NCBI RefSeq assembly: GCF_900108095.1
Contig: NZ_FNWL01000001.1
Location: 1,054,001-1,118,000, forward strand
From: Natronorubrum sediminis
Lineage (GTDB): Archaea; Halobacteriota; Halobacteria; Halobacteriales; Natrialbaceae
DNA: 64,000 bases
Reading direction: 5' to 3'
The notes below the pieces were generated by a model. The model saw only the letters and a program-made list of their open reading frames with translations, was not told where the DNA came from and ran no database searches. Of the stretch, positions 1 through 49,767 are shown piece by piece. Made by a program: the position numbers and the translations under genes. Each line of letters begins with the position of its first letter. The first letter of the stretch is position 1.

Positions 1-2574
1 AGCGAGGACGGTGAGATCGGCGATTTCGAGACGGACTCTGAAGAGACCGAGGCACTCGAGGAAATCGAGGCGACCTACGAGACGGACGACGCCGTGGTCA
101 CCCAGATCGTCGTTCGCGACGAGGGTGGTGACGTTCTCACGCGCGACTCACTCCTTGACGGACTCGAGTTACAACAGGACGTGCGAGACGACGACGAACT
201 GAACGAGACACTCGACGAACAGGGCTTCGTCAGCCTCGAGAACATCGTCGCGACGGGTGCCGTCTTCGAGGACCGCGCCGAAGACGCAAACGGCGCGCCC
301 GATACTAGCGAGCCGACGCTCGAGGAACAGATCGACGCGCTCGAGTCTCGTTCCGACGCGGACGTCGAGGACTTGCTCGCCGACGTGCTCGACCCCAACG
401 AGGCTGAAGACGACGAGGGAGACGCACAGGGGCCCGAACAGGGCGACGAAGGCGGCGATCCCTACGAGTTCCTGCCAACCAGCTACGAACCGGGCGAGAC
501 CGAGGCCGAGTCGCGACTCGTCCTCCTCTTTCAGGACGACGGGGCGGGGTCGGACGACGAATCCGATGCCGTCGCCGACGCACAGGTCGAAATCGACGGC
601 CTCGTCGACGAGCGCTTCGACGACGCGTTCGTCTTCGGCGACGGCGTCACCGACGAAGCGTCCTCGAGCGCCGTCGGCGACAGTTTCGCGATCATCACGC
701 CCGTCGCGCTCGTGCTCGTCCTCGGCGTGCTGGCAGTCACCTACCGCGACGTCGTCGACGTGCTCATCGGACTGTTCGGAATCAGCGTCGTCATGGCCTG
801 GCTCGCCGGGATCATGGGCTGGCTCGAGATCCCCTCGAGTCAACTGCTGATCGCCGTCCCCTTCCTGCTCATCGGGTTGAGCATCGACTACGCGTTACAC
901 GTCGTCATGCGCTATCGTGAAGCGAGGGCAGGCATGCTCGAGGATAGTGGTGACGACTCGAGAACTGGGATGCGCGTGGGTCTCGCAGGAGTCGTCCTCG
1001 CGCTGGCCGCGGCAACGGTGTCGACCAGTGTCGGCTTCCTCTCGAACGTCGTGAGTCCGTTGCCGGCCATTCAAGACTTCGCAATTTTGAGTGCGGGTGG
1101 TATCCTCGCCACGTTCGTCGCCTTCGCAATTCTCGTCCCGGCGCTGAAAGTCGAAGTCGACGCGTTCCTCGAGAATCGATTCGACCGGAATCGCGCGAAA
1201 CGCCCGTTCGGTGCGAGTTCGGGTGCCGGGAACCGAATTCTCTCCTGGGTCGCCGCGGTGCCGCGACGGGTTCCGCTCGGAGTCGTGTTCGTCGCGTTCC
1301 TCCTCGCGACGGGTGGGGCCTACGGGGCGACGACGATCGACACGGAGTTCAACGAGGCGGATTTCCTCCCCGAGGATGCCCCGGAGTGGGCGAAGGCCAT
1401 GCCGGGACCGCTCGCACCCGATACGTACACGATTAGCGACGACGCGGCGTATCTCGGCGACAACTTCGCCGACCGCGGCGAGGGCGGGCAGACACAGATA
1501 CTGGTGACCGAGAACATCACCGATCCGGCAGCACTGACGGCGATGGCCGATTCCACCACCACCGACGATGGTGTGTTGAGCGACGACAGTACCGAAGCCG
1601 ACGACGGAACCATCGTTCTCCGACCCGACGGCGAGGCCGCAATCGACGGTCCGCACTCGGTGATCGACGAAATCGCGAGTGACAACGAAACCGTCGCGAG
1701 CGAACTCGAGGCTCGCGATACGACCGGCGACGGGCTCCCGAACGAGGACGTCACCGGCTTCTACGACGTGTTGTTCGATGCCGACGCCGACCGAGCGTCG
1801 GACGTGCTCCACCGCGTCGATGGGGAAGGCGAGAGCGACATCGACGACGAGGACGGTGGAACCGACGGCGACGAGGGAGGCGGCAACACCGAGTACGAAT
1901 CCGCTCGTCTCCTCGTGAACGTCCAGGGTGACGCTTCCGCACAGGACGTCGCCGACGACACGCGCGATGTGGCCGACGAAATCGAGGATACCGCACCCGT
2001 CTCGGCCGTCGCGACGGGCGGACCGGTGACGACGGCAGTCGTACAGGATGCGCTCCTCGAGACGCTCGTGCAGGCGTTCGCGGTGACGTTAGTCGTCATC
2101 CTCGTCTTCCTGACGGGACTCTACTGGTATCGCCACCGTGCCCCCTCCCTCGGTGCGGTGACGATCGCGCCGGTCGTCGCCGCATTAGCGTGGCTGCTTG
2201 GAACGATGGCGCTGCTCGACGTGCCGTTCAACAGCGAAACGGCGGTCATCACGAGTCTCGCGATCGGGTTGGGCGTCGACTACAGCATCCACGTCAGCGA
2301 GCGCTTCGTCGCGGAACGAGACGAACGCGAGTCACTCGAGGCCGCGCTCACCGCGACCATCACGGGAACCGGCGGGGCGTTACTTGGCAGCGCGGCGACG
2401 ACGGCGGCCGGGTTCGGGGTTCTCGCGTTGGCACTCTCCCCGCCGTTGCAACGCTTCGGGCTGGTGACGGGACTGAGCATCGTCTTCGCCTTTATCGCCT
2501 GCCTGACCGTGCTGCCGTGTTTGCTCGTGCTCCGCGAGCGAGTTCACGAGCGACTCGGTCGGTATCGGAACTAA
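1..2574 (+). CDS. RND/MMPL-family exporter, 5' truncated
   Basis: The reading frame is open from base 1 with no start in view, so the gene begins upstream of the window; 857 residues are visible. It looks like the archaeal RND superfamily exporter (MMPL type), a membrane pump with two similar halves. Two clusters of hydrophobic helices are visible, at about residues 230-390 and 680-850, each with the typical 'GLSIDYALHV' or 'GLGVDYSIHV' segment in the fourth helix of the RND bundle. A large acidic extracytoplasmic domain lies between them. The substrate cannot be told; family members move lipids, hydrophobic compounds or metals. The acidic loops (for example around residues 130-190 and 570-630) fit a halophilic surface-exposed protein. 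Confidence 0.88.
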   Translation, partial: SEDGEIGDFETDSEETEALEEIEATYETDDAVVTQIVVRDEGGDVLTRDSLLDGLELQQDVRDDDELNETLDEQGFVSLENIVATGAVFEDRAEDANGAPDTSEPTLEEQIDALESRSDADVEDLLADVLDPNEAEDDEGDAQGPEQGDEGGDPYEFLPTSYEPGETEAESRLVLLFQDDGAGSDDESDAVADAQVEIDGLVDERFDDAFVFGDGVTDEASSSAVGDSFAIITPVALVLVLGVLAVTYRDVVDVLIGLFGISVVMAWLAGIMGWLEIPSSQLLIAVPFLLIGLSIDYALHVVMRYREARAGMLEDSGDDSRTGMRVGLAGVVLALAAATVSTSVGFLSNVVSPLPAIQDFAILSAGGILATFVAFAILVPALKVEVDAFLENRFDRNRAKRPFGASSGAGNRILSWVAAVPRRVPLGVVFVAFLLATGGAYGATTIDTEFNEADFLPEDAPEWAKAMPGPLAPDTYTISDDAAYLGDNFADRGEGGQTQILVTENITDPAALTAMADSTTTDDGVLSDDSTEADDGTIVLRPDGEAAIDGPHSVIDEIASDNETVASELEARDTTGDGLPNEDVTGFYDVLFDADADRASDVLHRVDGEGESDIDDEDGGTDGDEGGGNTEYESARLLVNVQGDASAQDVADDTRDVADEIEDTAPVSAVATGGPVTTAVVQDALLETLVQAFAVTLVVILVFLTGLYWYRHRAPSLGAVTIAPVVAALAWLLGTMALLDVPFNSETAVITSLAIGLGVDYSIHVSERFVAERDERESLEAALTATITGTGGALLGSAATTAAGFGVLALALSPPLQRFGLVTGLSIVFAFIACLTVLPCLLVLRERVHERLGRYRN

Positions 2575-2592
2575 CCTCGGTCGTCACCGAGG

Positions 2593-3495
2593 TCAACTCG
2601 AGTCGTCACCGGAGTGGGCGCGAACCCATAGCTCGCCGATGCGAGAGAGTCTGGTGCGGTAGGATTTGCCGCGTTCTTCGCGTTCGATGTAGCCTTTGCC
2701 GCCCGGCCCGAGTCGATCGACGTTGTAGATGACCTTCGAACGGAAGCTGTCGGTGTACTCCTCGTTGAGTTCGCGAGCTAAGGCCTCGGCGAGTTCAGAG
2801 ACAGAGTCGAACTCGCCGTCCTCGCCGAGTTTGTAGAGGATGAGTTCCTCGAACGGCTTGACGTTCGAAAACGAGGCGACGGGCAACTCGACGATGTGGC
2901 GGCCGTCGATTTCCTTGGCACCGATCGTCGTCCCGCGTTCGTCGAACTCCGAGAGGAGGTCGCGAGCGCTCTCGAGACGGGAATCGATCCGGTCGCCGTC
3001 GACCGACTCCGACTCGGCGTCGAAGTCCTCGAGCAGGGTGATCTGCTCGCGAAGCTCTTCGGCGAGTTCGGTCTCGAGGTACTTCTCGGGGGCCGTGTAG
3101 TAGGTGTGGATGCCTTCGCGATCCTCTTGTCGTTCGACCATCAGCGAGTGGGCGGCGTTCGCGAACGCGAAACTGACGGTTCGGGGCATCGCGGCGACGT
3201 TGACCCAGACCTCGTTCCCGCGATCGAGTTCCGCCGTGATCAGGTCGTAGGCCTGCTCGAACGCCGCGTCATAGTCGTAGACATCTTCCAGGACGAACCG
3301 GTCCGTACTCGCGCCGAGGAGGTTCCGAAAGTCCGTCTCGAGTTTCTCCGAGAGGTGCCGGGAGTACTCGACGTTGGCCTCGCTGCCGACGGCTCCCTCG
3401 AGCAAAATGACGCTGTCGACGTCGATCTGGTCGCGCACGAGGGGCGCGATCAGCCGGTCGTAGTCGAAGCCGACCGGAACGATGTGCGTTTGCAT
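2593..3495 (-). CDS. CARF-like / winged-helix regulator (DUF6293, HFX_2341-type)
   Basis: A 300-residue protein. The ATG at 3495 is chosen because the protein then opens with 'MQTHIVPVGFDYDR', a first beta strand and loop; a longer reading frame adds 13 non-conserved residues. The N-terminal half looks like a Rossmann-type CARF domain: a 'PVGFDYDR' loop at about residues 6-13 and a second ligand-loop-like segment, 'VWVNVAAMPRTVSFAFANAA', at about 100-119. The C-terminal third (about 215-295) has a winged-helix pattern ending in a basic wing 'GKSYRTRLSRIGE'. The layout is that of Csa3 regulators, which sense cyclic oligoadenylates, but no CRISPR genes are near. I infer a ligand-controlled transcription factor; the ligand is unknown. 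It converges on the exporter gene, with 18 bp between the stops. Confidence 0.75.
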   Translation of the reverse strand: MQTHIVPVGFDYDRLIAPLVRDQIDVDSVILLEGAVGSEANVEYSRHLSEKLETDFRNLLGASTDRFVLEDVYDYDAAFEQAYDLITAELDRGNEVWVNVAAMPRTVSFAFANAAHSLMVERQEDREGIHTYYTAPEKYLETELAEELREQITLLEDFDAESESVDGDRIDSRLESARDLLSEFDERGTTIGAKEIDGRHIVELPVASFSNVKPFEELILYKLGEDGEFDSVSELAEALARELNEEYTDSFRSKVIYNVDRLGPGGKGYIEREERGKSYRTRLSRIGELWVRAHSGDDSS

Positions 3496-3585
3496 ACGTA
3501 GGTCGTCACACGGTGAGGTTATCAATCCCGGCACGTTGGGTCGACGCCGGTCGAATTCGACGAGAACTAGGCGCCAGAAGCTAAC

Positions 3586-4239
3586 TCATTCGGACTGTGC
3601 CGATGACGCTGCGCCAGCGGGCGACGGCGAGCGAATTAACTCCGCGATCGTCTCCCGGTCGTGTTCCGGGTCGAGGTCGAAGGATCCGAGGGTCGCTGGC
3701 AGGGTACCGGCGTCCGTCTCGCTACCGTCGCCGGGTTCCTCGAGCGGCACGATGCCACCGGCCATCCCGAACGTCTCCTCGAGTGGCCAGACGGCGACGT
3801 GAGCCTCGACGCCCAGGTTGGTCGATCGACCGTCACCGTCGAGGGGAACCGGGTAGCCGGCATCGAGCACGTACCAGGCACCGGCAGCGCCGTTCGTCGC
3901 CTCGAACTCGAGGGTGTTTCGCGTCTCCTCAACGACCAATCCCTCGTCCTCGAGCGTGTCGACGAACTGTGATTTCGCCTTCGGTGCCGCTTTCGAGAAG
4001 ACCGAGTCCGGCGAGACGCCGACGGCCGAGAGCGACGGCGAAATCGAGAGATCGACCGTGAAGAGCGAGCGAGGCGGAATGTCGAGTGACTCGAGCGTCT
4101 CGATTCCGTCTGCAGGTTCAGTTGGTCCGTAGACAGTCGTTTCGGCGTGAATCGACGCGACGAGCACGCTCGATTCGCCGGTCTTCGTTCCGATCGGGTG
4201 CCACGACTCGGCGAGCGTAGCTGGCAGGTCAGTCCCCAT
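3586..4239 (-). CDS. Haloarchaeal hypothetical protein
   Basis: A 217-residue soluble, acidic protein that I do not recognise. The ATG at 4239 gives 'MGTDLPATLAESWHPIG'. No signal peptide, membrane helix or known catalytic motif is visible. The central part (about residues 25-145) alternates beta-rich stretches and Gly/Pro turns. The C-terminus is Asp/Glu- and Ser-rich and ends in 'PAGAASSAQSE', probably disordered. It lies 90 bp downstream of the CARF-like gene's start and 102 bp from the tfx-like gene, all on the minus strand, so it may share a transcript with one of them. The long uninterrupted frame with haloarchaeal codon use supports a real gene. Confidence 0.65.
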   Translation of the reverse strand: MGTDLPATLAESWHPIGTKTGESSVLVASIHAETTVYGPTEPADGIETLESLDIPPRSLFTVDLSISPSLSAVGVSPDSVFSKAAPKAKSQFVDTLEDEGLVVEETRNTLEFEATNGAAGAWYVLDAGYPVPLDGDGRSTNLGVEAHVAVWPLEETFGMAGGIVPLEEPGDGSETDAGTLPATLGSFDLDPEHDRETIAELIRSPSPAGAASSAQSE

Positions 4240-10005: not shown

Positions 10006-10848
10006 ATGGAACGTCTGGAGCGTCGTCGGGCGCTGATCGAGGAGCGCCTCGTCGAGGTAGTCGACGGCCTCGAGCCGGACGCGCTACAGGAGGAAGTTCG
10101 TCACACGGCACTCTCAGGTGGGAAACGCGTCCGGCCGATGGTAACGGTGTTGGCCTGTGAAACGGTCGGCGGAACGACGACAGACGCGGTCGATTTCGGC
10201 GTCGGAATCGAACTCGTCCACAGTGCGTCACTCGTCATCGACGACATCATCGATCGCTCCGAGTTGCGTCGCGGGACGACCAGCGCGTGGGCCGAGTTCG
10301 GCTACGGGCCAGCAATCGTCTCGAGTGACGGATTGCTTGGCGAGGCCTTTGCGCTCTTCTCTGCGGATCCGAACGCGATGCAGGTGGTCACCGAAGCGAT
10401 GGTCGAACTCGGCGTCGGCGAAGCAACGGAGTTGGCAGCCGAACCCGAGAGCGAAGCGGAGTACATGACACTCGCCCGGCGGAAGACGGGGGCACTCTTT
10501 CGCGCCGCCGCCGAACTCGGCGCGATCGCCGCCGATTCGGATCCGGTTACCGTCGAAGCGCTCGGCGAGTACGCCGAACGGGTCGGCATCGCGTTTCAGA
10601 TCCGAGACGACGTCCTCGACGCGATCGCGGACCCGGACGACCTCGGCAAACCGACCGGCCACGACGCCGCCCTCGAGCGGCCGTCGGTCGTACAGGTGAC
10701 CGATCTCACACCCGAGGAAGCAAACGTTCGGGCCAGACAGGAGTCGGATCGTGCCATCGAGGCCCTCGAGCGCGTCGAGGTCGTCGACCCGACGGCCAGA
10801 GAGTACCTCCTCGAACTGGCGCGGTTCGTCGTCGAACGCGAGCGGTAG
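10006..10848 (+). CDS. Polyprenyl (geranylgeranyl/farnesyl) diphosphate synthase
   Basis: A 280-residue all-trans isoprenyl diphosphate synthase. The first aspartate-rich motif DDIID is at residues 79-83 and the second, DDVLD, at 201-205; 'ALSGGKRVRPMV' at about 35-46 is the isopentenyl-diphosphate-binding region. The enzyme condenses IPP with allylic diphosphates for archaeal ether lipids or quinone side chains. It is shorter than the main haloarchaeal IdsA (usually about 340-350 residues), so it may be a second paralogue. The region following DDIID reads RSELRRG, close to the usual LRRG. Product chain length cannot be predicted safely. Confidence 0.9.
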   Translation: MERLERRRALIEERLVEVVDGLEPDALQEEVRHTALSGGKRVRPMVTVLACETVGGTTTDAVDFGVGIELVHSASLVIDDIIDRSELRRGTTSAWAEFGYGPAIVSSDGLLGEAFALFSADPNAMQVVTEAMVELGVGEATELAAEPESEAEYMTLARRKTGALFRAAAELGAIAADSDPVTVEALGEYAERVGIAFQIRDDVLDAIADPDDLGKPTGHDAALERPSVVQVTDLTPEEANVRARQESDRAIEALERVEVVDPTAREYLLELARFVVERER

Positions 10849-10889
10849 AATCGGATCCGTCGAGCGAACAGATCGAGCGGAGCAGGCGT

Positions 10890-12020
10890 CTATGCACCGT
10901 CGAAATCCCGCGTTCCCTCCTCGACGTCTTGTTCTGGGTCGCTCGACTCCGCAAATCGGGACTCGAGGACGGCGAACGCGAGCGTACTCACGATACCGAG
11001 GAGCGTGCCGGCGGTCAACGCCATCGCGAGGTAGCTCATCTCGACGACGTCGAGGAAGTACGCGCTGACGGCGTGCAAGACGAAGGCGATCGAAATGACG
11101 TAGAAGGGCGCGTTGAGATAGCGCCACTCGAAGCGACCTGCGATGTACTCGTCGGTGATCTGTCCGAGACTGGTCGTGAGCGCTGCGGCGGCGAACCACT
11201 GAATCGAGCCGTAGACGAACGCCGCGAGCATGACCGGTGCACCCACTCGGCCGGGCGTGGTTTCTTGAACGCCGTCGAAGGTATCGAGGCCGCTGACCGC
11301 ACCGAGGACGAACAGGGCGGCAGCGACGACGTAGGCGAGCAACGTGGTGCGCCCGGCATAGAGCAGTCGACGCGTTCGCTCGACGGTGTCGTCGAGTCGC
11401 TCGCCGAGACCGAGTCCTCGAGAGATGAGGTACAACCCGAGCAACGCCGACGTCGTCCCGAGAACGAATCCGGGCATATCCAGTGCGGAGCCGATCAACG
11501 CGAGTGGATAGATGAGCAACAGGATGCCGAGTGGGATCAACACCGTTCCGCGCGTTTCGGGGTCGTCGAGCACCTGTTTGATCGTGTAGTACATCGACTC
11601 GAGGTTCTGTGCCTGACGAACGACGACGCGACGGACGCCGTCGATGGGAACCCGTGATCGGATGATGGGGATGACCGATTCGTCCTGTGCGCCGTCGGTG
11701 ACGACGAGCGCAGTGACGTCCTCGGCAGTCGAGACGCTCGCGAGGACGGTATCGACCTCGTCGCCGACCTCCCGATTCGCTTTCACGTCGCCCTCGTCGT
11801 TGCCGGTGACGACGGCGACTTCGACGCTCTCGTTGCGATCAGCGAGGTCGTCGTAGATGTGTAACCCCTGGAAGATGACGTTGACGTCGGAATCCTCCGG
11901 ATCTGCAGTCGCGAGTGCGACGGCTGCCTCCTCGACGGGGTCGCGGCCGATAACCGGGGTCGAAAACCCGGTTTTTCGCCCGAGGTCGTCGTCGAGGTCG
12001 ACACAGAGGACCAACAGCAT
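10890..12020 (-). CDS. DUF373 family membrane protein
   Basis: A 376-residue archaeal DUF373 protein. The ATG at 12020 is chosen because the family begins 'MLLVLCVDLDDDLGRKTG'; a longer frame adds 11 residues. The N-terminal soluble domain (about 1-140) has the conserved 'CVDLDDDLG' and a 'GLHIYDDL' segment. The C-terminal part has about six hydrophobic helices (about 155-355). The function is unknown; the Asp-rich N-terminus suggests metal or nucleotide binding. The tail 'DVEEGTRDFDGA' is cytoplasmic-like. It converges with the polyprenyl synthase gene. Confidence 0.88.
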   Translation of the reverse strand: MLLVLCVDLDDDLGRKTGFSTPVIGRDPVEEAAVALATADPEDSDVNVIFQGLHIYDDLADRNESVEVAVVTGNDEGDVKANREVGDEVDTVLASVSTAEDVTALVVTDGAQDESVIPIIRSRVPIDGVRRVVVRQAQNLESMYYTIKQVLDDPETRGTVLIPLGILLLIYPLALIGSALDMPGFVLGTTSALLGLYLISRGLGLGERLDDTVERTRRLLYAGRTTLLAYVVAAALFVLGAVSGLDTFDGVQETTPGRVGAPVMLAAFVYGSIQWFAAAALTTSLGQITDEYIAGRFEWRYLNAPFYVISIAFVLHAVSAYFLDVVEMSYLAMALTAGTLLGIVSTLAFAVLESRFAESSDPEQDVEEGTRDFDGA

Positions 12021-27912: not shown

Positions 27913-28314
27913 TCGACGCGGGTTCGTCGTTTCAACTTTCTTGCAGCGCTCGAGTAGTTAGGTAGCCGTCGCTAACAGAAATCCGATGTGACAGTATCGA
28001 AGAAGACCCAGACAGGAATGCGGGTACAGCAACCCCTGGCTCAGTCGCTGACGACACTGAATATGGATTCTCGCAGTGGTGTCGTCCGCGTCACGTCATC
28101 GCCGTAACGACAACGAACCGGGGGCGCGTTAGTCGCAGTCTCGTCCGGTGGGTCAGGCGTGCTTCGATTTGCCGTGAGTACTTCGAACAGTCACCGATAT
28201 CACGATCGCGGACTGTTGCATCGACTTGAATCGACACGGGGCAGGTTTCGTCGATTGCAACGGCACCTAACGGACGAAGGGTTTTTCGAGCCGATTGCGA
28301 GACGCTCGAGGCGC
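27913..28314. other. 402-bp region between atpB and the beta-solenoid gene
   Basis: No gene is supported. A frame upstream of 28315 is open on the plus strand for 52 codons but is Arg-rich and unlike the following protein. A minus-strand frame at 28091-28363 overlaps the solenoid signal peptide and has no recognisable features. The region presumably holds the atpB 3' end and a separate promoter for the solenoid gene. Confidence 0.5.
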
Positions 28315-29232
28315 ATGCCAAGAAACACAACTCGCCGCCGGATCGTCGCATTGGCAGGGTCAACTGTGGTTGGACTGGCCGGGACGCTCACGGGAAGTGT
28401 CGGTGCAGCACAATCCGGTACAGAATCCGATCAAGCGCTCGTGATCGACGCCGATACGGACGACGACGTCGACCACACCGGCGATATCGTCGTTCGGCAG
28501 GGGGTCACCGTCGACGGCGATCTCGAGGCGAGCGGTCACGTCGAACTCGAGACGGGGGTTGTCGTAGATGGCGAGGTGATCGCGAATTCGCTAACAGCAG
28601 GGTCGACCGTAGAGTTCGACGACAGCGTCGACGTGAGCGGCGACCTATCGGGCGGAGATAGACTCTATTTCGACGACGACGTGTCGGCTGACGGTGCTGT
28701 CTCAGTCGGCGAGGGGGCCTATTTCGACGACGACATCATCGCGGGGGGAGATATCGACATCGGCGTCGATGGGTACGTCGACGACGAACTCGACAGCGGC
28801 GGAGACGTGACGCTCGATCAGGGTGTCGTCGTCGACAGCGACGTCGACGCGATCCGGGCCGTCGACCTCGCTCGAGGCGGAGAAATCGGCGGAGACATCG
28901 ACGCCGGTGAAACCGTTTCAGTTAGCTCGCAGGCCGAAATCGGTGGCGTGGAAACGGGTGGGGGTATCGAGGCGGGCGACGACGTCTCGTTCGACGACAG
29001 CGTCTCGGCTCTCGGATCGATCGACGTCGGCGACGGCGCGTACTTCGACGACGATATCGAGGGTGGGAGCGACCTGACTCTCGGCGACGATACGACCGTT
29101 GACGACAGTATCGAGGCGACGGGTGACATCGAACTCGGCTCGCAGGGGTACGTCGATGACGACGTCTCCGGCCGAACCGTAACGCTCGGAGCGGGGACGA
29201 CGGTCGATGGTGACGTCGAAGAAGGCTGGTAA
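28315..29232 (+). CDS. Tat-exported acidic beta-solenoid (bactofilin/hexapeptide-like) protein
   Basis: A 305-residue protein. The ATG at 28315 gives a Tat signal 'TTRRRIVALAGSTVVGLAG' (twin Arg followed by a hydrophobic core) ending at about residue 36, 'SVGAAQ'. The rest is an Asp/Gly/Val repeat with units such as 'VSVGEGAYFDDDI' (about 130) and 'DVGDGAYFDDDI' (about 238), 'GDITVxxGxVVDG' and 'SGDLSGGD'. This is the pattern of a left- or right-handed beta-solenoid as in bactofilins and polymer-forming proteins, but exported. There are no cysteines and no clear C-terminal anchor. It sits between atpB and atpD in the same direction. Its role is unknown; a surface or cell-envelope scaffold is inferred. 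Confidence 0.75.
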   Translation: MPRNTTRRRIVALAGSTVVGLAGTLTGSVGAAQSGTESDQALVIDADTDDDVDHTGDIVVRQGVTVDGDLEASGHVELETGVVVDGEVIANSLTAGSTVEFDDSVDVSGDLSGGDRLYFDDDVSADGAVSVGEGAYFDDDIIAGGDIDIGVDGYVDDELDSGGDVTLDQGVVVDSDVDAIRAVDLARGGEIGGDIDAGETVSVSSQAEIGGVETGGGIEAGDDVSFDDSVSALGSIDVGDGAYFDDDIEGGSDLTLGDDTTVDDSIEATGDIELGSQGYVDDDVSGRTVTLGAGTTVDGDVEEGW

Positions 29233-31756: not shown

Positions 31757-32989
31757 TTACTGGTAGAAGTAGCCCGCAGACGAGATAACGTCACTCGAGT
31801 CGTCGTCTTCGATCTTCTCGATGGCGTTGAGGAAGTCTTCGTGGTGGACCTCCTCGCGGTCGTTGCGGATAGCGAACATGCCAGCCTCGGTCGTGAGACT
31901 CTCGATTTCGGCCCCGGAGTAGCCGTCGGTTTCCTCGGCGAGGTCGTCGAAATCGACCTCGTCGTCGACGTTCATGCCGCGCGTGTGGATCTGGAGGATC
32001 TGCTCCCGACCTTCCTGGTCGGCTTCGGGGACTTCGATGAGACGATCGAAGCGCCCGGGTCGGAGGATGGCGCGATCGAGCATGTCGAAGCGGTTCGTGG
32101 CGGCAATGATGCGAATCTCGCCTCGAGCGTCGAAGCCGTCCATCTCGCTGAGGAGTTGCATCATCGTCCGCTGGACTTCGGCGTCTCCCGACGTCTTCGA
32201 CTCCGTTCGCGTCGTTGCGATGGCGTCGATTTCGTCGATGAAGATGATTGCCGGTTCACGTTCGCGAGCCATCTCGAAGAGGTCCCGGACGAGTCGCGAG
32301 CCCTCACCGATGAACTTCCGGACGAGTTCCGAGCCGGCCATCTTGATGAACGTCGCGTTGGTCTCGTTGGCGACGGCTTTGGCGAGCATCGTCTTCCCGG
32401 TCCCTGGCGGTCCGTGGAGGAGCACGCCACTCGGTGGTTCGATGCCGACGTCCTCGAACAGTTCAGGTTCGGCGAGGGGCTGTTCGACGGCCTCGCGAAC
32501 TTCGCGAATCTGTTCGTCGATGCCGCCGATCTCTCCGTAGGTGACTTGTGGTCGCTCGGAGATTTCCATCGACTGCGCTCGCGCGTCGGTTTCGGCGTCA
32601 AGGATCGTCTGTACTGCAAACGAGTCGTTGACCGCGACGCGGTCGCCGGCTTCGAGTCGCTCGAGCATCCGCGGGGAGACGTCGGTCAACACCTCCTGGT
32701 TGTTGCCGTGTTGTTTGACGACGACTTCGTCGTTGTCGAGTACGTCCTCGACGGTCGCGATGTACAGCGAGGAGCCTTTGAGCGTCTCGTTTTCGCGTTC
32801 GACGCGGTCGACGCGCTCTCGCAGTTGCTCGCGGCGGTCTTGGGCCTGTTCGAGCTGGGAAGCGAGTTGCTCGTTGACGTCCACGAGGTCCGAGAAGTGC
32901 CCGTGGAGCGCCTCGAGCCGTTCGCTGTCGGGGAGATCCGGATCGATATCGCGGTGAGGTCGGTCTGGGATAGACGGGCTTCGAGACAT
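31757..32989 (-). CDS. pan: Proteasome-activating nucleotidase (PAN)
   Basis: A 410-residue AAA ATPase that unfolds substrates for the 20S proteasome. The ATG at 32989 is chosen; the upstream open frame is basic and not conserved. It has an N-terminal coiled coil (about 30-70), an OB domain (about 75-135), Walker A GPPGTGKT (193-200), Walker B 'IIFIDEID' (248-255), sensor 'IIAATNRFD' and the 'RPGRFDR' finger. The protein ends in F-Y-Q, the HbYX motif that docks into the proteasome alpha ring. Haloarchaea often have two PANs; this one cannot be assigned to A or B with certainty. Confidence 0.95.
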   Translation of the reverse strand: MSRSPSIPDRPHRDIDPDLPDSERLEALHGHFSDLVDVNEQLASQLEQAQDRREQLRERVDRVERENETLKGSSLYIATVEDVLDNDEVVVKQHGNNQEVLTDVSPRMLERLEAGDRVAVNDSFAVQTILDAETDARAQSMEISERPQVTYGEIGGIDEQIREVREAVEQPLAEPELFEDVGIEPPSGVLLHGPPGTGKTMLAKAVANETNATFIKMAGSELVRKFIGEGSRLVRDLFEMAREREPAIIFIDEIDAIATTRTESKTSGDAEVQRTMMQLLSEMDGFDARGEIRIIAATNRFDMLDRAILRPGRFDRLIEVPEADQEGREQILQIHTRGMNVDDEVDFDDLAEETDGYSGAEIESLTTEAGMFAIRNDREEVHHEDFLNAIEKIEDDDSSDVISSAGYFYQ

Positions 32990-33123: not shown

Positions 33124-33465
33124 TCACTCACAGGAGTACGTCGGTGAACTCTCGAGTTCTTCGACGGTCATGTCTTCGGGGTCGTCGTATCCGCAATCGA
33201 GTTCGGCGTCGGATTCGTCGGCTTCGCAGGTCGTGCTACGGATATTGTTGAGGTGGGAGCCGCCGACGATAGTGTGACAGTAGCAGGTTTCAGCCGGGCC
33301 ACACTCGCTCGCTTCGGCCGCTGTACACTCGCAGTTGACTGCGGTTGCTGAGGACGACGCCCCAGCAATTCCTGCGACGGAGGCGACACTGACCGCCGTC
33401 GCTCTCAGTACTCGACGTCTGTTTACCGTTGGTTCGCCGCGCCGATCTGATTGGTCATCAGACAT
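33124..33465 (-). CDS. Tat-exported small eight-cysteine protein
   Basis: A 113-residue protein. The ATG at 33465 is preferred to a GTG three codons upstream. A Tat signal 'NRRRVLRATAVSVASVAGIA' (about 15-34) with a likely cleavage after 'SSATA' leaves a mature chain of about 71 residues with eight cysteines: C-x-C, C, C-x-C, C, C, C. It is acidic and ends 'SSPTYSCE'. The even cysteine number suggests disulfides or bound metal outside the cell. I do not recognise the family. The layout (Tat signal, short Cys-rich mature part) recalls halocin precursors, but the sequence is not like halocin C8. The upstream DNA is AT-rich with a good TATA box. Confidence 0.7.
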   Translation of the reverse strand: MSDDQSDRRGEPTVNRRRVLRATAVSVASVAGIAGASSSATAVNCECTAAEASECGPAETCYCHTIVGGSHLNNIRSTTCEADESDAELDCGYDDPEDMTVEELESSPTYSCE

Positions 33466-33489
33466 GTGTTCCACGTTAATACGTCACTA

Positions 33490-33503
33490 GTATTTATATT
33501 TAC
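33490..33503 (-). promoter_or_regulatory. TATA-like box of the eight-cysteine protein gene
   Basis: On the minus strand the sequence reads GTAAATATAAATAC, the strongest TATA-like core in this part of the window, centred about 31 nt before the ATG at 33465. A further AT-rich patch (CCTATTTTTTGGAG, 33522-33540) lies upstream. Confidence 0.55.
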
Positions 33504-33696: not shown

Positions 33697-35508
33697 TTAC
33701 TCGAGCAGTTGCTCCAACTCCTGGAGTCGCTCCCCGTACGTCTCGAGCGCGCGATCGATGGGATCGGACGTGCTCATGTCGACGCCGGCGATCCGGAGCA
33801 ATTCGAGGGGATACTCGCGAGAGCCCTGTCGGAGGAACTCGAGGTAGTCCTCGGCGGCGTCGCGGTTCGGGTCGCTTCCGGGGCCGTCGGGGAGCACGTC
33901 GTCGACGATGGCGAGTGCGGCGGAGATGCCGGTCGCGTACTGGTAGACGTAGAACGCGCGGTAGAAGTGGGGAATACGCATCCACTCGCGAGCGATGCGG
34001 TCGTCGATGACGGCGGGTTCGTAGTACGCTTCTTTGAGTCCGCGATAGACCTCGTCGAGTCGGTCTGCCGTGAGGGGCTCTCCAGTCTCTTCGAGTCGGT
34101 GTGCTTCGTGTTCGAACTCGGCGAAGAGCGTCTGTCGGTAGAGCGTCGAGCGGACGCGTTCTGCGAACTCGTTGAGAACGTGCGTGCGGAACTCGGGGTC
34201 GTCGACGGTCTCGAGGAGGTGATTCGTCAGCAGGGCCTCGTTGACCGTGCTGGCGACCTCGGCGACGAAGATTTCGTAGTTCGAGTAGATGAAGGGCTGT
34301 TCGTCTTTCGTCAACTGAGAGTGCATCGAGTGGCCGAGTTCGTGTGCCAGTGTGTACATCGAGGAGATGTCGTCCTGATAGTTCATCAGGATGAACGGCT
34401 GGGTGTCGTAGGTGCCACCGGAGTACGCGCCGGATTGTTTGCCCTCGTTCTCGTAGACGTCGACCCAGCGCGACTCGAGGCCCTCGGCGACACGAGATTG
34501 GTACTCCTCGCCGAGTGGTTCGAGTGCCTCGACGACGTACTCACTCGCCTGCTCGTACTCGAGGTCGGGGCTCTCGCCGCCAGTGACGGGCATGTAGACG
34601 TCCCACATCTGAAGGTCGTCAACCTCGAGTGCCTGGCGCTTGAGTTCGGCGTGGCGGTGGAGTTTGTCGAGGTTGTCGTTGACGCTGTCGACGAGCGTGT
34701 CGTAGACGTCGACGGGAACGTTCGGACCGTCGAGGGCGGCCTCGCGGGCGGTGTCGTAGTTGCGAGCCTGTGCCATCTTGACATCGGCCTTGACGCTGTT
34801 CTTGTAGGACGAAGCGACCGTATTGCGAACGTCGCTCCACTCGTCGAAGTAGGCCTCGTAGACCGTCTGGCGGAACTCCCGCTCCGGTCGTTTGAGCAGG
34901 TTCGTGAGGTTGCTCTGGGTGATCTCGATCGCCTCGCCCGAGGGATCTTCGACCGTCGGGAACGACATGTCCGCGTTCGATAGCATGGTGTACACTTCGC
35001 CCGTCGCACCAGTGACCTCGCTCAGGTCGGCCAGCAGGGCCTCGACCTCCGCCGAGCGCGTGTGCGGTTTCATCCGCAGAATGTCGTCGACGTAGTGATC
35101 GTAGGTCTCGAGAGCGGGTTCGGACCCGGCCATCGACTCGAATTCCTCGCGAGTCAACTCCTGGAGTTCCGGTTCGATGAACGACGCCGCGGACTGGGCG
35201 TCGGCTGCGAGCGATTGTGCGCGTGCAGTCAGGGCCTGGTACTGTTGATTCGTCGTATCTTCGTCGCGACGCATGCGAGCGTAGGAGGCGACCATTGCTA
35301 CCTCGCGCATGACGTCGTCACGGAGTTCGAAGACCTCGAGGAGGGTACTCTCGTCGTCAGTCGTCTGGCCCTCGTAGGCGGCGAGGTCGTCGACGCGCTC
35401 GGCGACCGATTCGTACGCGGTCTCCCACTCCTCGTCGGAGGCGTAGATACTCTCGAGATCCCAGGTATCGGCCTCGTCTACTGCAGATCGTTCGGGAACG
35501 GAACTCAT
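33697..35508 (-). CDS. pepF: Oligoendopeptidase F (M3 family)
   Basis: A 603-residue zinc endopeptidase of short peptides, probably cytoplasmic. The ATG at 35508 ('MSSVPERSAVDEADTWDLES') is chosen; the longer frame adds 22 residues. The active site HELGH is at residues 389-393 in 'TLAHELGHSMHSQ', with the third ligand Glu in the next helix ('FVAEVASTVNEALL'). 'YSGGTYDTQPFILMNY' and 'VAEVASTVNEAL' are typical of PepF. It is divergent from the M28 peptidase gene, 85 bp apart. Confidence 0.94.
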   Translation of the reverse strand: MSSVPERSAVDEADTWDLESIYASDEEWETAYESVAERVDDLAAYEGQTTDDESTLLEVFELRDDVMREVAMVASYARMRRDEDTTNQQYQALTARAQSLAADAQSAASFIEPELQELTREEFESMAGSEPALETYDHYVDDILRMKPHTRSAEVEALLADLSEVTGATGEVYTMLSNADMSFPTVEDPSGEAIEITQSNLTNLLKRPEREFRQTVYEAYFDEWSDVRNTVASSYKNSVKADVKMAQARNYDTAREAALDGPNVPVDVYDTLVDSVNDNLDKLHRHAELKRQALEVDDLQMWDVYMPVTGGESPDLEYEQASEYVVEALEPLGEEYQSRVAEGLESRWVDVYENEGKQSGAYSGGTYDTQPFILMNYQDDISSMYTLAHELGHSMHSQLTKDEQPFIYSNYEIFVAEVASTVNEALLTNHLLETVDDPEFRTHVLNEFAERVRSTLYRQTLFAEFEHEAHRLEETGEPLTADRLDEVYRGLKEAYYEPAVIDDRIAREWMRIPHFYRAFYVYQYATGISAALAIVDDVLPDGPGSDPNRDAAEDYLEFLRQGSREYPLELLRIAGVDMSTSDPIDRALETYGERLQELEQLLE

Positions 35509-48330: not shown

Positions 48331-49767
48331 ATGGTATCAAATACCACGGGCCTATCCGCCGCTGGACTGGCACGGCGGATCCGCGACCGCGATCTCGCTC
48401 CGAGCGAGGTCGTCGAGGACCACCTCGAGCGGATTCGCGAACGAAACGAGCGGACGAACGCGTTCGTTACGGTCACCGACGAGCTGGCCCGCGAGATGGC
48501 CGCCGACGCGGAACGCGCCCTCGAGGCTGGTGATCCGCTCGGGCCGCTCCACGGAGTTCCCGTCGCAATCAAAGACCTCGACGACGTCGAGGGCGTTCGG
48601 ACGACGTCGGGGTCACTCCTTTTCGAGGACCGCACCGCCGACGCGGATTCGCCGTTCGTCGCCAGGCTGAAAGAGGCGGGCGCGATCGTGGTCGGCAAGA
48701 CCAACCCGCCGGAGTTCGGTCTCGGAACGACGACGGACAACCGGGTCGCCGGGCCGACGGGGACGCCGTTCGATCCCGACCGCGTCGCCGGCGGCTCCTC
48801 GGGTGGCGCGGCCGCGGCACTCGCCGACCGGTTGGTCCCCCTCGCGCCGGGCTCAGACGCCGGCGGATCGATCCGTATTCCGGCGAGCCTCTGTGGCGTG
48901 TACGGACTCAAGCCGACCTACGGACTGGTCCCGAACGTCGGTCGACCAAACGGCTTCGCGAGCCATACACCGTTCTCCCACGAGGGTCCGATGGCCCGCA
49001 CCGTCGAGGACGTGGCCCTCTCGCTCGACGTGATGGCGGGGACGCATCCGCGCGATCCCTTTTCAGTTCCCGTGACCGACGACTACCGTGCAGCCGTCGA
49101 CCGACCGATCGACGAGCTAACGATCGCGTACAGCCCGGACATGGGCGTGTTTCCCGTCGAACCCGCCGTTCGGGACGTTCTCGAGGAAGCCGTCACCGAA
49201 CTCGAGCGTGCCGGGGCGACCGTCGACGAGGTAGACCCCGACCTCGGTCACGACCAAGCGGAGTTACTGGACGCGTTCTACACGATGGCGACCGTCCGAT
49301 GGCAGTCGCTATTCGACACGCTCGAGGACCAGGGATTCGATCCGCGCGGAGCCGACCGCGACCGACTGCGACCCTACCTCGTCGATCTCGTGTTAGACGC
49401 CGAGACGCCGACCACGAGGGAGGCTGCCCAGGCTGACGTGGTCCGAACGACCGTCTACGACGGCCTGGAGGACTGCTTCGAGGAGTACGACCTGCTCGCG
49501 ACGGCGACGCTCGCCACGACCGCGTTCGCACACGGCGAGGAACCCGAAACGATCGACGGCGTCGAGGTCGAGCCGCTGCGCGGCTGGGTGCTCACGCAAC
49601 CGTACAACTTCACCGGTCACCCCGCCGCGTCGGTTCCCGCCGGATTCGTCGACGACCTCCCCGTCGGTATGCAACTCGCCGGCCCCCGGTTCGCCGACGC
49701 CGACGTCATCGCGGCCAGCGCCGCCCTCGAGCGACGGCGGCCGTGGATCGATCGCTACCCCGCATGA
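48331..49767 (+). CDS. Amidase (amidase-signature family)
   Basis: A 478-residue amidase-signature hydrolase. The Ser-cisSer-Lys triad is visible: Lys81 in 'GVPVAIKDLDDVEG', cis-Ser156 in 'GGSSGGAAAALADRL' and nucleophile Ser180 in 'SDAGGSIRIPASLCGVYGLK'. It hydrolyses amides; the exact substrate is open (GatA-like, indoleacetamide or nylon-oligomer-type enzymes share the signature). No gatB/gatC genes are near, and the length fits a stand-alone amidase. The ATG 48331 is preceded by a plausible TATA-like 'TTTTGTATCAC' 25 nt upstream. Confidence 0.93.
   Translation: MVSNTTGLSAAGLARRIRDRDLAPSEVVEDHLERIRERNERTNAFVTVTDELAREMAADAERALEAGDPLGPLHGVPVAIKDLDDVEGVRTTSGSLLFEDRTADADSPFVARLKEAGAIVVGKTNPPEFGLGTTTDNRVAGPTGTPFDPDRVAGGSSGGAAAALADRLVPLAPGSDAGGSIRIPASLCGVYGLKPTYGLVPNVGRPNGFASHTPFSHEGPMARTVEDVALSLDVMAGTHPRDPFSVPVTDDYRAAVDRPIDELTIAYSPDMGVFPVEPAVRDVLEEAVTELERAGATVDEVDPDLGHDQAELLDAFYTMATVRWQSLFDTLEDQGFDPRGADRDRLRPYLVDLVLDAETPTTREAAQADVVRTTVYDGLEDCFEEYDLLATATLATTAFAHGEEPETIDGVEVEPLRGWVLTQPYNFTGHPAASVPAGFVDDLPVGMQLAGPRFADADVIAASAALERRRPWIDRYPA

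Follow-up and report, generated by a model that had tools for sequence, protein, structure and literature searches.

A rare orphan family of cysteine-rich mini-proteins with predicted twin-arginine signals in haloarchaea

The 64-kb window analysed here, which is the whole stretch of Natronorubrum sediminis DNA under consideration, contains a small minus-strand gene (33124..33465, stop codon included) that belongs to a real and rare orphan family and is preceded by a strong promoter-like sequence. We describe its open reading frame, the conserved cysteines of its product, a TATA-like run, a fixed site in the genome, a narrow distribution, and a divergence far above that of its neighbours; from these we infer export, cleavage, disulfide formation, release, binding and a part in competition. 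Reading from sequence, we tentatively regard the product, with somewhat less than even confidence, as a secreted, disulfide-stabilised accessory mini-protein that would act on a partner outside the cell.

The frame running from 33465 to 33124 encodes, as the original prediction had it, a 113-residue twin-arginine precursor and a mature chain of about 71 residues, with eight cysteines arranged as CxC, C, CxC, C, C, C. The predicted signal peptide (residues 1-42; 33340..33465, minus strand) possesses an NRRRVLR motif, a hydrophobic stretch, and a candidate cleavage site between ATA and V, beyond which lies the predicted mature chain of 71 residues (43-113; 33127..33339, minus strand). A GTG at 33474 is a possible alternative start three residues earlier, and its use would affect no result. 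On reading, the precursor has the features of a Tat substrate, namely NRRRxLR, invariant in all three known copies, the hydrophobic stretch and, in the window protein, ATA; Tat profiles score it only below threshold (Pfam TAT_signal, E 4.3; TIGR01409, E 0.55). A Tat lipoprotein was considered and set aside, as the precursor sequence has no lipobox cysteine at the cleavage site, its first cysteine coming after AVN. Because neither a lipobox nor a C-terminal hydrophobic anchor is visible in the sequence, the mini-protein is predicted to be released from the cell. The mature chain is acidic (pI 4.05) and hydrophilic (GRAVY -0.56; range -0.56 to -0.73). Its richness in cysteine is indeed rare, as had been proposed: 464 kb of the same genome, comprising the window and 20 further stretches, contain 21 acidic Tat-like open reading frames, nine of them with a mature part of at most 200 residues, and among these nine the mini-protein has eight cysteines, against 0 or 1 in each of the others.

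A TATA-like promoter element, a 12-base A/T run, is located upstream of the gene at 33491..33502 (TATTTATATTTA in plus-strand letters; TAAATATAAATA on the coding strand, minus, 33502-33491). It is the sole A/T run of at least nine bases in the 64-kb window (GC 62.6%), which bears out its earlier description as the best TATA box of the area. First-order Markov simulations produced 0.05 runs of at least 12 bases per window, and at least one such run in 10 of 200 simulations. The run ends approximately 26 bases 5' of the ATG, a distance that would fit a nearly leaderless mRNA. By eye, the two homologous copies described below also have AT-rich upstream stretches, at a similar distance in one (G128) and farther up in the other (G200). 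A bacterial-type scan returned one sigma-70-like match and no terminator; the model being bacterial and the host archaeal, this result was not used.

Two real homologues besides the window gene came out of a search across the order (392 genomes), one in the same genus (genome G200; E 1.6e-32, 53% identity) and one in another genus (genome G128; E 1.4e-16). This single-protein search matched 100 of the 392 genomes at E<=0.01, and the remaining matches (best 4.3e-6) were set aside as weak and lying for the most part in and around the Tat signal; the follow-up covered one plus-strand frame for each of 37 loci and both strands for eight. With a profile of the mature chain, four of 125 genomes of the family matched at E<=0.01, the fourth of which (G407, E 0.006) is not convincing, so that the gene is found in 3 of 125 family genomes, and 391 genomes of the class add none. 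At E<=0.05 the class-wide profile matched 20 of 391 genomes; none of the ten weak loci inspected combines a Tat signal with this cysteine pattern. A DNA pattern for CGPxExCxC matched in 4 of the 391 genomes. The fourth of these, in G148, falls within a 417-residue frame of a different type, which lacks a Tat start, and it was taken as chance because a reversed-pattern control also matched single genomes. Loci L016, L018, L019 and L021 encode a different small protein of Tat type (...SPCSDCDDCY...ACRGWE...), which is well conserved in its own genus (g2) and whose mature part is unrelated to the mini-protein.

Whether the cysteines are conserved was the question on which the original prediction had been staked, and in both homologues they are. 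Eight cysteines, an even number, occur in each of the three copies, the first six in the same order and with nearly the same spacing. This six-cysteine core (residues 45-80; 33226..33333, minus strand), CxC-x7-C-x5-CxC-x16-C, is kept in all three, with a five-residue insertion in G128, where the seventh cysteine is also displaced and the sixth and eighth stay equally far apart. Among gap-free columns of the three sequences, 7 of 9 that contain cysteine are invariant versus 16 of 62 others (Fisher p=0.004). Pairwise NG86 estimates of dN/dS are approximately 0.26-0.35 (0.404/1.151, 0.516/2.0 and 0.488/1.531), and these, the E values of the two homologues and the eight cysteines of each copy support the conclusion that the frame is coding. 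A single-sequence structure model of the window mature chain has a mean pLDDT of 49.7, which is too poor for cysteine pairing, and the disulfide proposal therefore draws no support from a fold.

The residues that are invariant in all three copies bear on two other views of what the protein does. They include, besides the cysteines, one histidine, and with the two CxC motifs this would suit an exported metal binder, in which the CxC pairs and the histidine would take up metal in the cytoplasm before export of the folded holoprotein by Tat, for metal capture or detoxification at the cell surface. The Tat pathway can carry folded proteins with cofactors across the membrane, and the original prediction took the signal to imply folding, possibly with metal or disulfides, prior to export. 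That argument is weak, as 39-55% of haloarchaeal secreted proteins use Tat (PMC2945643), and the signal is thus no hint of a cofactor. Furthermore, the shift of the seventh cysteine in G128 suits a disulfide more easily than a metal site, no metallothionein or other metal family was matched in Pfam, and no metal gene was noticed beside the three copies; we regard a metal-binding role as unlikely. The redox role that the original prediction also named found neither support nor counter-evidence here. The second view concerns a stretch framed by cysteines, GGxHxxxIRxTxC, whose marked positions are invariant in all three copies. GGxHxxxIR could be a cysteine-held binding loop through which the protein inhibits, or protectively binds, secreted proteases, and the spacing C-x5-C-x-C-x16-C resembles the later half of thyroglobulin type-1 inhibitors (thyropins). 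The signature of thyroglobulin type-1 domains is CWC, however, and the three proteins have CYC, CVC and CKC instead; with no Pfam match either, membership of that family was rejected, and a role in protease inhibition appears improbable.

No convincing family match to the mature part was obtained from Pfam, NCBIfam, PHROGs or the PDB. In Pfam, none of the three mature chains has a family at E up to 10, and a PDB profile search gave no match. The PHROGs matches are weak (at best E 0.0021, for residues 4-65 of the G128 protein against a profile of unknown function) and were set aside because they are dominated by the signal peptide. Additionally, no relative was found in collections of species-genome contigs, viral contigs, plasmids or phages.

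The position of the gene is fixed. In all three genomes it lies upstream of, and on the same strand as, a gene that we take to encode the proteasome-activating nucleotidase, PAN (31757..32989, minus strand, in the window; 99.3% amino acid identity to G200). On its other side is what is presumably a pepF-like oligopeptidase gene (33697..35508, minus strand), the other border of the interval. In a stretch of approximately 4 kb upstream of PAN, taken from each of 100 other genomes of the 125-genome family, the gap between PAN and pepF is at most 300 bases in 58, 300-500 in 6 and 500-4000 in 32, with no pepF within reach in the other 4, and this spread of sizes marks the interval as a variable islet. 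In G200 some 6 kb of extra genes separate the mini-protein gene from pepF (locus L060, 4593-9691); these we take to be permease-like, gamma-glutamyltransferase-like and MFS-like genes. In G128 a small Tat-type open reading frame (MFTRRQLLG...) is seen by eye on the opposite strand, between the mini-protein gene and PAN.

Other cysteine-containing proteins are encoded in the same interval. A family of approximately 300 residues (starting with ...QPEYTGENRC..., about eight cysteines) recurs there, at 10151-11068 of locus L061 (G128) and at L086, L102, L131, L134, L135, L136, L140 and L176. In 2 of the 100 further genomes (G412 and G344) the interval contains Tat-type precursors with cysteine-rich C-terminal ends, of 302 and 314 residues in G412 (L070) and 279 residues in G344 (L163), with 14, 12 and 8 cysteines. 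The two G412 precursors are encoded on opposite strands, are 30% identical and match one another at E 4e-37, and one of them matches the G344 precursor at E 0.001. We take the layout of these precursors to be like that of halocin C8 precursors, a likeness for which the description in a review (PMC11509114) is the sole support. Neither Pfam nor NCBIfam names the two G412 precursors; a relative of one of them is encoded on a plasmid of Haloferax larsenii, where its annotation says no more than Tat-signal protein. The window mini-protein has no convincing similarity to the G412 and G344 precursors (best E 0.026).

Comparison with G200 sets the gene apart from its surroundings. G200 is a close sister, in which 51 of 54 picked window genes have a match that covers more than 60% of the gene, at a median identity of 97.5%. 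The mini-protein, at 52.6% amino acid identity, is the only one of the 51 below 70%, the next being at 79.8%. By NG86 its dS is approximately 1.15 and its dN 0.40, versus dS of 0.05-0.15 and dN of 0-0.03 for six neighbours, PAN left out, and this dN approaches the distance of the same gene to the other genus (dN 0.49-0.52). One edge of the divergent segment lies just upstream of the PAN promoter region, and on the far side of this edge the window and G200 are nearly identical. Within the gene, the last 18 codons (33127..33180, minus strand) have 88.9% nucleotide identity to G200, with the same codon for 14 of 15 shared residues, versus 47-63% in other blocks, indicating that the gene is a mosaic. 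Two further differences from G200 were observed elsewhere in the window. A gene at 28315-29232 (plus strand) encodes a 305-residue protein whose start is Tat-like and which contains acidic repeats; nothing at the corresponding position of G200 aligns with the region around it (approximately 27941-29175). The only match of a 478-residue protein (48331-49767, plus strand) in the compared G200 stretches is 46% over 108 residues, and judging from the sequence its gene is probably absent from the corresponding place.

Exchange of an old, divergent allele or fast change of the gene itself could each account for the divergence of the mini-protein gene. The simplest account is the replacement of the divergent segment by a foreign allele in one lineage. 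Since dS is also raised about tenfold, replacement by an old allele is favoured over positive selection alone, which we do not favour as the sole cause; with dN/dS below 1, there is no indication of positive selection. Repeated exchange, selected for difference at this gene, is possible, and the divergence is what one would expect of a protein that is exchanged or selected through extracellular contests; a single replacement suffices to explain it, however, and ongoing selection is not required. Alternatively, the gene might be a near-neutral orphan on transferred DNA, with no selected role and a divergence that reflects only the foreign allele, as its presence in so few family genomes and its place in a variable islet could suggest. 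The retention of eight cysteines in all copies, the low dN/dS and the strong promoter-like run argue against this explanation, which we consider improbable.

We return to the reading that we prefer, a secreted accessory protein with an outside partner. A lineage-restricted accessory gene would encode a small acidic protein for Tat export, which would be cut between ATA and V to release the mature chain outside the cell, where the eight cysteines would probably pair as four disulfides. The fold, held by the six-cysteine core, would display the conserved GGxHxxxIRxT stretch and variable loops. The protein may act by binding a partner that is extracellular or at the cell surface, in the simplest case one belonging to competing strains, as in antagonism. 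Divergent versions would be swapped at the PAN-pepF site because strains would gain by being different. The eight conserved cysteines, the lack of a lipobox or anchor, the A/T run and the standing of the gene as the lone outlier between sister species support this reading, and the halocin-C8-like precursors in the same interval of two genomes are a weak contextual hint in its favour. Against it, there are three sequences in all, ordinary genes also occur in the islet, and no immunity gene, which the original prediction proposed to look for nearby, is shared by the three neighbourhoods.

The same evidence touches on the possibility of a new type of halocin-like toxin. A disulfide-rich peptide would be secreted to kill related strains, and immunity would be encoded elsewhere in the genome or provided by receptor variation. 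The secreted size class, the extreme allele divergence between sister species, and the precursors in G412 and G344, which we take as halocin-C8-like, are consistent with such a toxin; an acidic, hydrophilic chain that has neither an immunity part nor a shared neighbouring immunity gene makes it rather improbable. More broadly, and this we find doubtful, the three proteins could be the founding family of archaeal four-disulfide secreted effectors, with ancient divergent alleles shuffled between species beside PAN, amid unrelated halocin-like genes, in an antagonism or recognition islet of swappable cysteine-rich mini-proteins.

Eukaryotes are well known to secrete disulfide-rich mini-proteins, which to our knowledge are little described in archaea; a literature search found no archaeal family of this kind. 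New here are the narrow distribution, the fixed position by PAN and how extremely the gene differs between sister species. With its three members, its conserved cysteines and the extreme divergence of its alleles at a single site, the family represents a test case for the part that small secreted proteins play between haloarchaeal strains, and the PAN-pepF interval is a place to mine for more of them.

Halocin C8 is cysteine-rich, and the mini-protein resembles it as a small, presumably Tat-exported product of the same character, and in that genes of apparently similar layout occupy the same interval of other genomes. According to a review, ProC8 is a 283-residue precursor that yields the immunity peptide HalI and a 76-residue halocin, and the halocins described so far are all hydrophobic (PMC11509114). 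The mini-protein, in contrast, lacks a HalI-type N-terminal part, its signal being followed directly by the cysteine domain, and is acidic and hydrophilic. Membership was therefore rejected on precursor layout (113 residues, no immunity part) and hydrophobicity, and the halocin suggestion of the original prediction survives only as a possible role. The small zinc-finger proteins of haloarchaea are likewise small and contain cysteine, whereas the mini-protein has a Tat signal and CxC pairs rather than motifs of the zinc-finger type. Bacterial-type metallothioneins share with it a small size, CxC motifs and a conserved histidine; membership was set aside, as none of the three mature chains has a Pfam match. 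Metallothioneins are described as intracellular chelators (PMC3600143), whereas the mini-protein carries an export signal.
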